Shown here one piece after another: positions 27,751 through 33,218 of a stretch of DNA of 64,000 nucleotides. Position numbers and translations under genes: made by a program. Positions within the stretch are counted from its first letter, which is position 1, and each line of letters begins with the position of its first letter. Below the pieces are notes generated by a model. It was not told where the DNA came from and ran no database searches. It saw only the letters and a program-made list of their open reading frames with translations. Location of the stretch: contig NZ_LNAL01000008.1 in NCBI RefSeq assembly GCF_001483135.1, positions 124,001 through 188,000 of the forward strand. The letters run 5' to 3'. This DNA comes from Solirubrum puertoriconensis. Lineage in GTDB: Bacteria; Bacteroidota; Bacteroidia; Cytophagales; Hymenobacteraceae.

Positions 27751-27965
27751 AGGCGCGGCTTCTTACCGATGAACAACCCTGCCCCTGGCTTGCGCACAAC
27801 TACTTGCCCTAGGTGGCGCCTAGGTTTTGGGGTTGCCGGCCAACCAAAGCCAAGCCCGGCCGTTAGGGCAGGTAACCTAGGTTGTGGTACGTGCTTTTTC
27901 TTCATCGGCAGCAACGGGTGTAGTTTGCCAATTGTTATTACTTGCTGCCTGAAGCCTTTCGCCCC

Positions 27966-29255
27966 GTGAGTTACTTTCTGTCGGAACAGCTTGCCCGGTT
28001 GCGCACCGGCACCCTCACGCCGCTCACCGATTTCTATGAGCAGCAGCGCGATATATTTAGTCGTTGGGCCCGGCGCCAGTTTGGCACCACGCCCGATTCG
28101 GCCCATGCGGTGTTGCGCGAGGTATTGCTTGAGTTCTACGACCAAGCCAACGATGGCCGCCTTAGCCGCTGGCCCACCGACTTACGTGCCCACCTCTACG
28201 GGGTAGCGCGGCAAATCCTGACGGCTACCGTAACCAACACAGCGCTGCCGGCCGAAAGCCCCCTGCCCGCTTCCGAAGCCGACCGCCGCCTGTTGGTGCT
28301 GCGTACCATGCGCCAGCTGCCCTACGACAGCCAGTTGGTGCTGCAGCAGTTTTACTTCCATGGCTCCAACTTCGAAACGCTGGCCGTAAAACTCGGCTAC
28401 CCCAATGCCAATGTAGCGCGCCGCCAGAAATCGGACGCGCTGCGCAAGCTCTACGAGGCACTCCAGCGTTTGGGAGCCGTGGGTACCGCCGAGCTGCTGC
28501 CTCACCTTACCGAGGTTGAGCGGGCATCTGATGGCCTGATGGCCAGCGCCGAACAAGACGAGTTTGATGCGCAAATGATGCTGGATGCCGAGCTGCGCCA
28601 AGCCTGCTTAGCCTACGAACAATACGCCGCCGACCTGCGCTGGGCTGCCGGCCGCGAAACCCTGCGCTTGCGCCTGGAGTCGCTCGATCGGCGGGTGGCG
28701 CAACGCATGGCGGCGCAGCAGCGCATTAGCCGGCGGCAGCGCCGCCAGCGGGTACGCTTGGGTGCCATAGCGGGTGCCTTAGCCGTGCTGCTTGGTAGCC
28801 TGGTGGTGCTGTGGCCCAAACGCGATACGCCTACCAGGGCCTGGGCTAATTATGATCTGCAGGAGCCTCGCCTACCGGCCACCACTACCGATGGCCGCCC
28901 CCTGCTGGAACAAAGCATGAACCTGTACCACAACGGTAGCTACCCAGCTGCCCTGCACACGTTGCGCCGTTTGCCCGCAGGTGCCCTAGGTCAGGATACC
29001 TTCTTGTTCTACAATGGCTTACTGCTGCTACGGCAAGAGCAGCCCCAACAAGCCGAAAGCTATTTTCAGCGGGTAAGCGAAATGCCTAACTCGCCCATGG
29101 CGGGGCGGGCCACGTTTTACCTAGGGCTAGCCCACTGGCAACAGCAAGAGCTGCCACAAGCCCAGGCAGCCTTGCAGCGCGCCGTTGGTACTGCCCCCAG
29201 CCCCCATCGCAATATGGCTCAGCGGGCCCTGCGCGAAGCTGGTTTTCAACAATAA
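27966..29255 (+). CDS. Fusion protein: sigma-70-like region, anti-sigma-like region, transmembrane anchor, TPR domain
   Basis: 429 residues from GTG at 27966 (TTG at 27942 would add eight). Residues about 22-88 resemble ECF sigma region 2 (FYEQQRDIFSRWARRQFGTT, LREVLLEFY, LRAHLYGVARQIL). About 107-164 resemble region 4 of Bacteroidota sigma factors (LPYDSQLVLQQFYF, LAVKLGYPNANVARRQKSDA). About 180-262 look like the cytoplasmic part of an anti-sigma factor (MASAEQDEFDAQMMLDAELR, then Arg-rich helices). One membrane helix follows (VRLGAIAGALAVLLGSLVVL, about 263-284), then TPR-like repeats outside (SMNLYHNGSYPAALHTL, YFQRVSEM, LGLAHWQQQELPQAQAAL). These are normally two genes; here they are one uninterrupted frame. 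Domain limits are estimates. It ends at a bidirectional terminator. Confidence 0.75.
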   Translation: MSYFLSEQLARLRTGTLTPLTDFYEQQRDIFSRWARRQFGTTPDSAHAVLREVLLEFYDQANDGRLSRWPTDLRAHLYGVARQILTATVTNTALPAESPLPASEADRRLLVLRTMRQLPYDSQLVLQQFYFHGSNFETLAVKLGYPNANVARRQKSDALRKLYEALQRLGAVGTAELLPHLTEVERASDGLMASAEQDEFDAQMMLDAELRQACLAYEQYAADLRWAAGRETLRLRLESLDRRVAQRMAAQQRISRRQRRQRVRLGAIAGALAVLLGSLVVLWPKRDTPTRAWANYDLQEPRLPATTTDGRPLLEQSMNLYHNGSYPAALHTLRRLPAGALGQDTFLFYNGLLLLRQEQPQQAESYFQRVSEMPNSPMAGRATFYLGLAHWQQQELPQAQAALQRAVGTAPSPHRNMAQRALREAGFQQ

Positions 29256-29310: not shown

Positions 29311-31914
29311 TTACTTGCGCACCACGCGCTGCTGGTAGCGCTGGCCGTTGAGCGTGGCCGTGAGCACGTAGCTACCGGCGCGGCAGTTAGGAGCGGCTTG
29401 CAGCTGGTTCAGGCCAGCAGTTACCTCTTGCCTCTTCGCCCACACCACGCGGCCCATCAGGTCGGTGAGCGTGAAAGTGGCTATGCCCGCTGCCGGGGCA
29501 GTAAGTTCTACCTCGAAACTGTTGTCGAAAGCCGTGGGGAAGGCAGCCAAAGCCGAACCAGCACCAAACGAAACCACTTGAGGACCATAGAAAGCGACTT
29601 TTCCGTCGTGGTCGAGTTGGCGCAGGCGGTAGTAGCGCGTGCCTTGCTTGCCGGGCTCGGTATCTACGTAGCGGTAGTTGCGCGCAGTTGCCGAGTTGCC
29701 TTCTGGTGCGGCCACAAAACCTAGCTCGCGGTAGTGCTGCCCATCGGCCGATACCTCCACGGCAAAGCCACGGTTGTTCAGCTCGGTGGCCGTTGCCCAG
29801 GTAAGCACGGCGGTTTGCTGCTGGCGGCGGGCGCTAAACGCCGTAAGGCCTACCGGCAACGGCCGCTGAAACGTTGCCAGCGCGTAGTAACCTAGGGCAT
29901 CGGCTCCGTCGAGGGTGGCAAAATAGCCCGTGGCCGTGGTGCCGCGGCTCGCTACGCCCTTGGGTTGCCACGGCGACGACCCGTTGGCCGAGCGGAAGAA
30001 AGCTTGTTCCTCCCAAGGTTGTCCGGCCAGTTCGTGGTTGGCGTACTCAACGCGCATGTTCAGGCGCATGCCGCTGGGCGCCGCGTTGGCCGAGGTCAGA
30101 TTGAAGTAACGCAGAATGCCGCGGTTGCCGTTGTTGCTGATGGGGGCTGTGCCAGTGATGCGCGTTACGGTAATCGCCGAGCTGGGCACTACCGATCCGC
30201 TGGCGGGTGCCAAAGCAAAACCCATGCTGCCAAAATCCTCGGTGCTGCCTTCGCGCAGCGTACGGGCCGCTTCTACGGTGCCCAGCACATAGCTGGTGGT
30301 GGTTTCGGCTATGGAGGCCAGCGGCGGCAGAACAATTTTATGCTGCCCCGCAGCCGACGTGTTTTCGTCGGTGGCTACAATGCCTTTGCTGAGCGTAAGC
30401 TTGTTGCCGATGATTACGTCGCCGATCAGGGTTTTGGTACCCTGCTCCAGCACCTCGAGGTTGTAGTACGTGCCGCCGCCAATCAACTGGTTGCCGTTGC
30501 CGGTAATCTGTACGGCACCTAGGGTCGAGATAAACGCCCCGTAGTTGTAGAGGTTGCCTTTGATATCGAGAATGCCGCCAGTTTGCGTAAAGCGCGACGA
30601 GGTGGTAAAATCCTTGTCGAACACCAGCTTACCCGCTGTCAATACCAAGTTGCCCGCAATGGCAAGGTTATTTAGCACAGTGGTGGTACCGCCCGCAACC
30701 GACAGCAGTTGGCCGGCAGGCACCGCATGCGAAGCAACCACAACGGTACCGCCGCGCACAAACAGCGAGTTTACCCCGCTCGAGCCGTTGTTTACCACCG
30801 TCGAAACCGTGTTGTTGCCGAGCTCGGCGCGCCCCGCTACTACTTCGATAGCCTTAAACGACTGCCCCGAGCTCGACGACGATAGGTTGATGTTCTTGGC
30901 TACGTTGTTGGCTACCACGTTGGGCAGGGCCGCGTTCGTACCCCAGCTGAGCGTCATGCCAATGAAGTCGTCGGTGCCGGTGTTTGTCCAGACGCCGCCG
31001 TTACCTTCTGCTGCCGTGCCGCCAATTACGTTGCCCGTAATGGTGTTGCTGTTGGAGTTGGTGCCGCCCCTGAAGCTGAGTGCGGTTTGCCCCGTGGCCG
31101 GGCGCGTAGCCGCCACTGCCGAGAGGGAGTGGTAAAAGCTGTTGTTGGTAATCGTCCAGGCGTTGTTGTTGGTGCCTACCGACAAGCCAAACGCACTGAA
31201 GTTGTCGAACTCGTTGTTGCTGAAGGTAACGTTGTCGTTGGCTGATGCCGCTGACATTGATCCTACATACACCAGATTGGCCGGAACTTCGGTGCTGCTG
31301 ATGTTGCCAAAATAATTTCCGGTAAAGCTGTTGTTGTCGTTACCGACCGAGCTGGCTCCGCGGCGCAGCTCGACTACTCCCCCATCGGTAATGGTATTGT
31401 TGCCGAGCAACCGCACCCCGCTTATGGTGTTGTTGCGGGCATCGTTGGTAAGCACCAAAGCCGGCTCAGCGTCATCGGGAGCATTGTTCATCACAACGCT
31501 CAGCTGCTGGCTACCCACGTTGTTGGCACCACTGAGGGTTACGTAGTGTGCCCCGCTCAGCGTAATGGTGCCCTGTATTTGGGTGTTGGCCGCGTTATTA
31601 TCGGGCTTAATCACGAGCGTTCGGCTCGCTGTACCTACTTTATTGATAAGCACATTCTCGCTCAGGATAGCTCCGTTCACGATGTGCAGCTCGTACGACT
31701 GATCGAGGGTAGTGGGTATTTCGGCCAACGCCTCCGTTAGGGTAGCGTACCTACCCTGCCCTACTTTATACACTTTGGGCTGGCCCTGCCCAAGCGCCTG
31801 CCCCGGCCCCAACCAGCCCGCCGCCGCTACCAAGAGCATTGCAGGTACTGTGGCCGCGTGCTGAGCAGCCCACCGCGGCAGCTTACTCATAAACGATGGT
31901 ACACGTTGCTTCAT
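29311..31914 (-). CDS. T9SS-exported right-handed beta-helix protein
   Basis: 867 residues from the ATG at 31914 (MKQRVPSFMSKLPRWAAQHA); the open frame runs a further 29 codons into AT-rich sequence. A signal peptide ending near LGPGQALGQ is followed by a long repetitive Asn/Gly/Thr/Ser-rich region (about 60-600) with motifs such as NNTISGVRLLGNNTI, NNEFDNFSAFGLS and SNTITGNVIGG, typical of a parallel beta-helix. An Ig/FN3-like segment (FSARRQQQTAVLTWATATEL) and a C-terminal T9SS type A sorting domain follow (AFPTAFDNSFEVEL to QRYQQRVVRK). The protein is expected on the cell surface or secreted, perhaps as a polysaccharide-binding or adhesive protein. The gene stands alone. Confidence 0.87.
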   Translation of the reverse strand: MKQRVPSFMSKLPRWAAQHAATVPAMLLVAAAGWLGPGQALGQGQPKVYKVGQGRYATLTEALAEIPTTLDQSYELHIVNGAILSENVLINKVGTASRTLVIKPDNNAANTQIQGTITLSGAHYVTLSGANNVGSQQLSVVMNNAPDDAEPALVLTNDARNNTISGVRLLGNNTITDGGVVELRRGASSVGNDNNSFTGNYFGNISSTEVPANLVYVGSMSAASANDNVTFSNNEFDNFSAFGLSVGTNNNAWTITNNSFYHSLSAVAATRPATGQTALSFRGGTNSNSNTITGNVIGGTAAEGNGGVWTNTGTDDFIGMTLSWGTNAALPNVVANNVAKNINLSSSSSGQSFKAIEVVAGRAELGNNTVSTVVNNGSSGVNSLFVRGGTVVVASHAVPAGQLLSVAGGTTTVLNNLAIAGNLVLTAGKLVFDKDFTTSSRFTQTGGILDIKGNLYNYGAFISTLGAVQITGNGNQLIGGGTYYNLEVLEQGTKTLIGDVIIGNKLTLSKGIVATDENTSAAGQHKIVLPPLASIAETTTSYVLGTVEAARTLREGSTEDFGSMGFALAPASGSVVPSSAITVTRITGTAPISNNGNRGILRYFNLTSANAAPSGMRLNMRVEYANHELAGQPWEEQAFFRSANGSSPWQPKGVASRGTTATGYFATLDGADALGYYALATFQRPLPVGLTAFSARRQQQTAVLTWATATELNNRGFAVEVSADGQHYRELGFVAAPEGNSATARNYRYVDTEPGKQGTRYYRLRQLDHDGKVAFYGPQVVSFGAGSALAAFPTAFDNSFEVELTAPAAGIATFTLTDLMGRVVWAKRQEVTAGLNQLQAAPNCRAGSYVLTATLNGQRYQQRVVRK

Positions 31915-32437
31915 ATGCTTTGATTTAGATTTTATCAAGATTTCAGCTTTGTAATCGCGCCGCTTTTTTATTGAACAACTGCAGTTATTCCGGTTGCACA
32001 AGCTGGATGTTTACAACTCTTTTGGTAGGCAAAGGCTCAAATCCGCGTTAGGAAGCGCCGCCTCATACAACTCGCTATAACCATAAAAAAGCGTTCTGAG
32101 CCGGTCAAACAGAGTAATCAACATAACTTAGTAACCTAAGTTACTATTGGGCGACGTTGATGCAAACAGCTCATCTTTAATTTACTGTAATCATATTAGT
32201 ACCTCGAGATTATAAAGCATAGTAATTATATAATATTTTAAACAGTATATATGATATGAAGTTATTCTGCTCGCTCAAAGGGCCATAGGTTTTAGTAGCT
32301 GCTTTTACCAAATCAGCATTGCTTGCCAGCTCCTTTTTATTTGTAATATTCTTATCAAAACACTAGTACAACTGCATACTCCATAAATAAGCCGCTGCTG
32401 TTAGTTATTTAGAAAGTTCTTACCGCTTCGGGTAGGG
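31915..32437. other. AT-rich intergenic stretch of about 520 bp
   Basis: No plausible gene on either strand. It is much richer in A+T than its surroundings. It contains overlapping palindromes at 32124-32146: TAACTTAG-TAAC-CTAAGTTA and TAGTAAC-CTAA-GTTACTA. I find no exact TAnnTTTG box facing the beta-helix gene. It may carry the regulatory region of that gene or be a remnant of an older insertion. Confidence 0.5.
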
Positions 32438-33142
32438 TTATCGGTGCCCGATGGGGTAAGGGGGTTCCAAGTTTTCCTGGCTCAGCAACTCCCACGTGTC
32501 CAAATTAAGCGCTGACAAGTGCCGAAGCTCGGGGTTGTGCCTGTACACGCAGCCGGTATCTAAGCCAATAGTCCCTGCCCGCCGCTTTACCCGCCGCCGT
32601 AGCTCCGCGGTTGGAGTGGGTGTGTGGCCGTGGAGCAGGCGCTTGCCCTGCAGGCGCGAAGCATCGAAAGTAAAGTTCTTGATGTTGAGCATACTGCGCT
32701 GATCGGTGCGCATGCGCTCGGGCGGCAGCCGAAAGTCGAATCCGGCGTGTACCAGCACAAAATCAGGCAGCTCCAGCGTAAGCGGCAGCGCCTCAAGCCA
32801 CTGCAAGTAGAGCTCCGGAATATGCTGCGGGTATGTTACCCCAAAGCTGCCTAGGGTTAGTTGGTCGGCCTTTGGGCCGGCCGCCCACGGGGCCAGAGGC
32901 CGCGCCTCGCGGGCGGCCTGCAGCACCTCCAGATCGTGGTTGCCCAGCAGGCAGTGCACCTGGTGGCCGGTGCGCTGCAGCTCCATCAGGTAATCGAGCA
33001 CGCCGCGGCTGTCGGGGCCTTTGTTTACGTAGTCGCCCAGCAGGTATAGCTCGTCGGTGGTGCTGAGGCCAATGCGCTCTTCAACCAAGTGGCGCAGGGT
33101 GCGCAGGCAGCCGTGAATATCGGTGGTAGCGTAGCGGGGCAT
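32438..33142 (-). CDS. Metallophosphoesterase, PPP-type serine/threonine phosphatase
   Basis: 234 residues from the ATG at 33142 (MPRYATTDIHGCL); the frame continues 19 codons upstream without need. The metal-binding PPP motifs are all present: TDIHG, LGDYVNKGPDS, LLGNHDLEVL, VHAGFDF and LLHGHTPTP. The family includes bacterial diadenosine tetraphosphatase-like and PrpA/B-type protein phosphatases. The length and the LDTGCVY motif near the C-terminus fit bacterial PPP phosphatases. The substrate is unknown. Single gene with its own spacer. Confidence 0.9.
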   Translation of the reverse strand: MPRYATTDIHGCLRTLRHLVEERIGLSTTDELYLLGDYVNKGPDSRGVLDYLMELQRTGHQVHCLLGNHDLEVLQAAREARPLAPWAAGPKADQLTLGSFGVTYPQHIPELYLQWLEALPLTLELPDFVLVHAGFDFRLPPERMRTDQRSMLNIKNFTFDASRLQGKRLLHGHTPTPTAELRRRVKRRAGTIGLDTGCVYRHNPELRHLSALNLDTWELLSQENLEPPYPIGHR

Positions 33143-33193
33143 AAGGTTGAGCAGCAGGGAAGCGGAAACAAGACTATACGCACGGGCACAAAA

Positions 33194-33218
33194 AAGCACC
33201 GCCTAGGTGGCGGTGCTT
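33194..33218 (-). terminator. Rho-independent terminator
   Basis: AAGCACCGCC / GGCGGTGCTT, perfect 10-bp arms with TAGGT loop (the loop region contains CCTAGG), followed on the leftward strand by a T run. It terminates the small disordered-protein gene at 33245-33469. Confidence 0.8.

Follow-up and report, generated by a model that had tools for sequence, protein, structure and literature searches.

Sigma and anti-sigma functions joined in one polypeptide are described as established for IutY and as proposed for ECF36, ECF48, ECF52 and ECF53 (PMC8999054, PMC9249621, PMC5411451, PMC5826349), and only 6% of Bacteroidetes ECFs are reported to have a class I anti-sigma factor next to them (PMC7406223). 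Here we examine a 429-residue protein (the window protein) encoded in a 64,000-nucleotide stretch of DNA from Solirubrum puertoriconensis (the window). A sequence-only reading of the window had presented a cis-tethered sigma factor as a different signalling logic; the idea is not new, the design being already known from IutY and proposed for ECF52. The oddity of this locus is instead the clade-wide degeneracy of its sigma half. Among the matches listed in the literature searched (published, mostly open-access articles), we found no description of such a fused, degenerate family.

Like the window protein, IutY (Pseudomonas putida, ECF243) combines sigma and anti-sigma functions with a single transmembrane (TM) helix (PMC5411451, PMC8999054, PMC9249621). 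As characterized in those sources, the periplasmic part of IutY is FecR-like and works with a TonB-dependent receptor, whereas the outer part of the window protein is a TPR domain, not a FecR-like one; the sigma half of IutY is active after Prc and RseP cleavage, whereas that of the window protein is degenerate; and the window protein, unlike IutY as described, has a full anti-sigma-like domain between sigma4 and the TM helix. In ECF52 (SCO4117 of Streptomyces coelicolor), as in ECF48 and ECF53, a sigma domain, an anti-sigma domain and a TM helix share one chain as they do here, and ECF52 also has an extracytoplasmic domain (PMC5826349, PMC8999054). ECF52, which these accounts report from Actinobacteria only, differs in having a zinc-finger domain and a carbohydrate-binding module, neither of which matched the window protein (Pfam, E 10), and in a sigma domain annotated with the sigma70-ECF profile TIGR02937, on which the window protein scores 17.3 bits against a cut-off of 42.9.

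Two further systems share some traits with the window protein. ECF42 has a TPR domain, C-terminal to its ECF sigma and essential for activity, in an account that mentions neither an anti-sigma domain nor a TM helix (PMC8999054). PhyR, of the alphaproteobacterial general stress response, is described as having a sigma fold, degenerate promoter and core contacts and an anti-sigma partner (PMC8103513), but it is a response regulator, and Pfam and NCBIfam scans found no receiver domain in the window protein. Homology in both halves extends to Bacteroidota gene pairs of an ECF sigma and a TPR anti-sigma factor (L017-L022), which differ in being separate genes and in having a sigma half with an intact region 2.2 motif and a longer linker. 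At two of these canonical pairs, L017 (G025 C1:2406566) and L019 (G021 C1:1027143), a further Sigma70_r2 gene is located upstream at a distance of about 2 kb.

The window protein is read from one open frame at 27966-29255 (+), from a GTG start that aligns with the start codons of relatives to a TAA stop at 29253-29255; an alternative upstream start, TTG at 27942, would give 437 residues. On the same strand follow a sigma2-like domain (28017-28235, residues 18-90, delimited by AlphaFold2 helices, alignments and the residue census described below), a shortened sigma2-sigma4 linker (28236-28268, residues 91-101, from AlphaFold2 secondary structure and the length census) and a sigma4-like helix-turn-helix domain (28269-28469, residues 102-168, from a Sigma70_r4 match below cut-off, VIA and conservation), whose highly conserved recognition helix lies near residues 147-163. 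A class-I-like anti-sigma domain (28485-28703, residues 174-246), recognized by homology to the second gene of split pairs and by AlphaFold2 helices, is followed by a single TM helix (28758-28814, residues 265-283; hydropathy 2.33 over 19 residues, against at most 1.4 in all other segments) and a TPR domain (28881-29237, residues 306-424; TPR_16 and VIA), which is probably periplasmic. An Arg-rich stretch precedes the TM helix, suggesting that this side is cytoplasmic. The open frame, the AlphaFold2 model, the TPR_16 match and conservation confirm what the sequence-only reading had claimed: sigma-derived, anti-sigma-like and TPR segments, together with one TM helix, form a single intact polypeptide.

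Profile searches divided the claim about individual domains. The TPR match was significant (TPR_16, Pfam, E 7e-10), while Sigma70_r4 matched weakly and below cut-off (E 0.0084 at full length, E 0.0018 for the cytoplasmic part alone; 18.2 bits against a curated cut-off of 24.1) and Sigma70_r2 gave no match at E 10 (Pfam). Four further clade members were likewise without a Sigma70_r2 match at E 1, whereas all six distant sigma proteins scanned singly matched at E 1 or better (four of six above cut-off), and the same genome holds 20 other Sigma70_r2 matches, all above cut-off. Structure prediction agreed with the proposed layout, giving sigma2-like, sigma4-like and anti-sigma-like helices plus a TPR array (whole protein: mean pLDDT 87, pTM 0.58). 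The full-length fold search was dominated by TPR matches, so the cytoplasmic part was folded separately, and residues 1-248 are predicted as one unit (pLDDT 92.5, pTM 0.86).

The top Foldseek matches of residues 1-248 are the ECF sigmas 6dv9_F, 8z6g, 6kon_F, 6in7 and 1or7, with weak E-values (best 1.7e-3, none below 0.001). VIA placed the sigma4 part on SigL region 4 (3hug_G) with Z 8.3 and rmsd 1.9 over 74 residues, a Z level that VIA calls common among helical folds; because of this, the sigma-fold call also leans on homology to split relatives with sigma profiles. The predicted fold has both the sigma2 and the sigma4 of an ECF sigma factor (group IV sigma70), and the TPR part matched the YbgF TPR (2xev_B) with Z 15.7 and rmsd 2.3 over 119 residues. 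The VIA rows also include 9n9q_C, a chain of an RNA-guided transcription complex, at Z 7.5 and rmsd 24.4, its Z being within 1 of that of many other sigma rows; a literature search on a relation to RNA-guided (Cas12f-type) sigma factors gave nothing useful.

The anti-sigma region consists, in the AlphaFold2 model, of helices at 174-188 and 194-206 and one long helix at 208-247. In its placement it is like a class I anti-sigma factor: it is helical, lies on the cytoplasmic side ahead of a TM helix, and is encoded together with its sigma or, in split pairs, beside it. The window protein matched neither zf-HC2, DUF4880 nor a similar anti-sigma profile, and among 52 rows such profiles gave weak matches only (zf-HC2 in two, DUF4880 in four). 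A zinc-type anti-sigma factor is thus without profile support in the window protein.

Both split and fused forms occur among relatives. An initial set gave matches at E 1e-3 in 54 of 98 genomes, many of them merely ECF-like; the named relatives of the window genome are H. gummosus and Hymenobacter sp. 15J16-1T3B. In the same genus (g1), all eight genomes examined carry one full-length frame. Of 120 genomes from the neighbouring genus (g5), 91 have a match at E 1e-20 and 29 do not; eight of these 91 have one-frame copies (L009, L033, L034, L036-L040). Among the other 83, the split count rests on the 39 whose open reading frames were read: all 39 have two adjacent genes, the second being homologous to the anti-sigma part. 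The fused form was also found on a named Hymenobacter gummosus contig (L032). With one frame in eight of eight g1 genomes, in eight g5 genomes and in L032, a frameshift or assembly error is ruled out, and the fusion is real rather than an artificial joining of two genes that are separate in all relatives. Order-wide, 63 of 390 genomes match at E 1e-18 (at most four candidates scored per genome); among the matches listed, full-length single frames are confined to g1 and g5, and the distant relatives in the family and order (L017-L022) are adjacent pairs where read. On one contig (G144, C207) the anti-sigma/TPR gene occurs twice with equal scores, the copies facing opposite ways at a distance of about 11 kb; this could be either an assembly duplication or a real inverted repeat.

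The fused copies appear to have arisen repeatedly. A tree was built from 17 fused, 5 overlapping and 37 separate copies (59 rows); on it the fused state requires four changes, at least two of them forced by the starred branches alone; an earlier 47-row tree gave three changes, at least two. A topology that groups all fused copies together is worse by 81 log-likelihood units (AU p 7e-7), which rejects a single origin: fusion occurred more than once. Inside g5, repeated gain is indistinguishable from loss after fusion. Five of the eight g5 junctions viewed in DNA show a 4-base ATGA overlap between the sigma-like and anti-sigma-like genes (L016, L104, L105, L109, L111), and the overlapping pairs fall in a g5 sub-clade that also contains fused copies. 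Such an overlap is a possible step towards fusion.

The Asp and Gln of region 2.2 contact core. To describe the sigma half we compared 56 clade copies (39 split, 17 fused) with 19 ECFs from the same genome (of the 20 Sigma70_r2 matches, one RpoD-like protein being excluded), 16 sigma proteins of distant pairs and other ECFs, and 30 further sigma proteins from eight genomes; the last set includes two identical pairs and eight near-identical proteins that are probably RpoD (287 aa). Of the 65 comparators, 64 have the region 2.2 Asp (18/19 own, 16/16 distant, 30/30 further), against three of 56 clade copies (2/39 split, 1/17 fused), and the window protein has AHAVLR in place of AxDxxQ. The Gln is kept more often within the clade (10/39 split, 9/17 fused) and is less uniform among comparators (16/19 own, 16/16 distant, 15/30 further). 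No clade copy, split (0/39) or fused (0/17), has the Asn of region 2.3-2.4, which occurs in 17/19 own, 7/16 distant (most others having Arg) and 19/30 further proteins; at that place the window protein has Gln, as do the eight further rows that are probably RpoD.

The surroundings of these residues have changed as well. Over the 20 residues around the region 2.4 place, net charge averages +4.1 in own ECFs and +4.2 in distant ones, against -0.6 in g5 split, +0.1 in g5 fused and +0.1 in g1 fused copies. From the region 2.4 place to the sigma4 Gly there are at least 67 residues in every comparator and at most 62 in the clade. A profile built from own and distant sigma proteins scores those at 143-242 bits, which is high by construction, and the clade at 54-80. 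The account of M. tuberculosis sigmaH reports that its linker passes through the active-site cleft and that deleting it abolished transcription, and that Asn88 is a wedge opening the promoter, N88A causing a defect (PMC6411747); by the domain limits given there, the linker has 40 residues in sigmaH versus about 11 in the window protein. Among the hallmarks of an ECF sigma factor, the window protein lacks the 2.2 Asp and Gln and the 2.3-2.4 Asn and has lost most of the sigma3.2 linker, and the sigma half, split or fused, is by these sequence measures degenerate throughout the clade. Because split copies show the same losses, its decay would most simply have preceded fusion.

Conservation within the clade is uneven. 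Among sigma segments it is lowest in the 2.3-2.4 helix, where the commonest residue has a mean frequency of 0.61 and one position reaches at least 95%. It is highest in the sigma4 recognition helix (mean 0.81, nine positions reaching at least 95%), with Q154 and K155 present in 56/56 copies, and in the specificity-loop segment, which is level with it (mean 0.81, four such positions). dN/dS was estimated by segment in 13 close pairs. Within the sigma half the ranges were 0.03-0.41 (regions 2.1-2.2), 0.06-0.36 (region 2.3-2.4 plus linker) and 0.00-0.24 (sigma4); further along the chain they were 0.04-0.43 (anti-sigma domain), 0.10-0.93 (TM part), 0.10-1.13 (periplasmic linker) and 0.04-0.42 (TPR domain). 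Apart from the TM and periplasmic-linker segments, most values are far below 1 and conservation exceeds chance, so this appears to be a functional gene. The sequence recognized by sigma4 seems to be more important than the one recognized by region 2.4.

ToxR and CadC are examples of membrane-tethered regulators that bind DNA. The reading we prefer, at a probability of roughly 0.4, is that the locus encodes a regulator with a similar logic: a pseudo-sigma that remains joined to its anti-sigma domain and is coupled to a TPR sensor in the periplasm. In the Hymenobacter lineage, a sigma/anti-sigma pair of ECF origin would have ceased to provide a conventional sigma factor, its sigma2 now serving mainly as a hold for the anti-sigma domain. 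The two halves would remain together, the tethered protein would bind DNA via sigma4, and control would come from the TPR sensor reading a protein or peptide partner; DNA binding, topology, TPR ligand and output are all points that we infer. Such a regulator would need no release step, with regulated proteolysis staying compatible, and because its halves need not part, fusing them would cost nothing.

Several points count against the pseudo-sigma. A pure DNA-binding role for sigma4 leaves unexplained the constraint on both regions 2.1-2.2 and the specificity loop, the region 2.4 Asn varies among comparators too (the 7/16 of the distant set), and a good share of copies, fused and split, keep the 2.2 Gln. 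Helix 1 of class I anti-sigma factors is reported to contact the -35-binding part of sigma4 (PMC7406223), and this contact would block DNA binding while the halves are joined. Very divergent members of the sigma70 family are also described as working, for example the two-protein SigO-RsoA (PMC8103513), which weighs against taking divergence as loss of sigma function. A search for an operator of the protein found none.

More tentatively still, the whole lineage may have converted an ECF sigma/anti-sigma pair into a one-component, membrane-tethered regulator that keeps a -35-type DNA-reading helix, with release becoming unneeded and repeated fusion following. If this is true, gene fusion would serve as a visible sign of the point at which releasing sigma ceases to matter. 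The usual sigma/anti-sigma model, a main bacterial signalling design, requires the two to separate. The split, overlapping and fused states at one locus in close relatives, with degeneracy of the sigma half present in split copies too, are a natural experiment on the need for release, whatever the mechanism. The locus also offers a test case for sigma folds used outside transcription initiation.

Alternatively, the protein may be a working, divergent ECF sigma factor that its own anti-sigma domain keeps at the membrane until regulated intramembrane proteolysis frees it, as in IutY and as proposed for ECF52. We consider this possible but rather doubtful. The order of parts is that of ECF52 and the principle that of IutY, the region 2.1-2.2 and specificity-loop segments are still constrained, and outside the clade the relatives are normal pairs of neighbouring genes, with six of six distant sigma proteins matching Sigma70_r2. 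Set against this, the clade has lost the 2.2 Asp, the 2.4 Asn with its charge and most of the linker, and an intramembrane cut would leave an intact anti-sigma domain attached unless it were degraded in cis. The sequence-only reading had proposed a cis-tethered sigma factor that would need proteolytic release or act at the membrane: a sigma-derived part is indeed tethered within the chain, but with no Sigma70_r2 match and with hallmarks and most of the linker lost, a working sigma factor that needs release is not to be assumed.

Less probable again is a decoy in the manner of PhyR, in which a sigma mimic would free or capture the anti-sigma domain on a signal and so change the activity of another, real ECF. 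The sigma-like domain of PhyR is described as having the correct fold with promoter- and core-contacting regions apparently degenerate (PMC8103513), and the 20 Sigma70_r2 matches in the genome could be clients. Against this, the DNA recognition helix is among the best kept parts although a decoy would have no use for it, and the fused form has the anti-sigma domain in cis with its mimic. That the gene is simply decaying without function is very improbable: hallmark residues are lost and 29 of 120 g5 genomes lack a match at E 1e-20, but the frame is open in all eight genomes of the genus, dN/dS is below 0.5 in the sigma, anti-sigma and TPR parts of all 13 pairs, and a glyA-like neighbour stands at all ten g1 and g5 loci examined.

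Neighbour genes were compared in 14 stretches (14 kb), ten from g1 and g5 loci and four more distant (L126-L129), the latter without a match to any window neighbour. The glyA-like gene adjoins the locus in 10/10 g1/g5 loci, and a phosphatase-like gene (window 32438-33199) is present in 8/10; both names are presumptive, given from the look of the sequences. A large convergent gene at 29311-32001 (-), called a beta-helix/T9SS gene in the sequence-only reading, comes and goes among relatives: it lies beside four of the ten loci (L118, L119, L121, L124) and was not found within 14 kb in L116, L117, L120, L122, L123 and L125. It is thus unsupported as a conserved partner, and nothing points to it as the adjacent target that the same reading had suggested.

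Upstream of the gene, a block of the form AACC-N13-GCCGTTA (27842-27865, +) precedes eight of nine fused g1-set copies, lying (with N13 or N14) 100-135 bases ahead of them and being absent from L008. To the eye it is ECF-promoter-like, but an association with the divergent glyA-like gene is just as plausible. A looser form of the pattern occurs at other distances in four of the other loci. Genome-wide, the pattern had 72 matches in eight genomes versus 72 for a reversed-pattern control, and a bipartite 4-mer search reached at most 6/19 loci versus 3-5 in 30 shuffles; no convincing promoter or regulon motif emerged from either search. A second element, TTACTTG/TATCTTG (27938-27944, + in the window), was seen in 30 of 44 g1/g5 copies, at most 120 bases ahead of the start, whereas 200 shuffles averaged 0.9 and never exceeded 4; in this comparison the motif was chosen after viewing the sequences and the 44 copies are related. 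It resembles what we take to be the Bacteroidota housekeeping -7 element and may be a housekeeping promoter element; if real, it would argue against ECF-type autoregulation.
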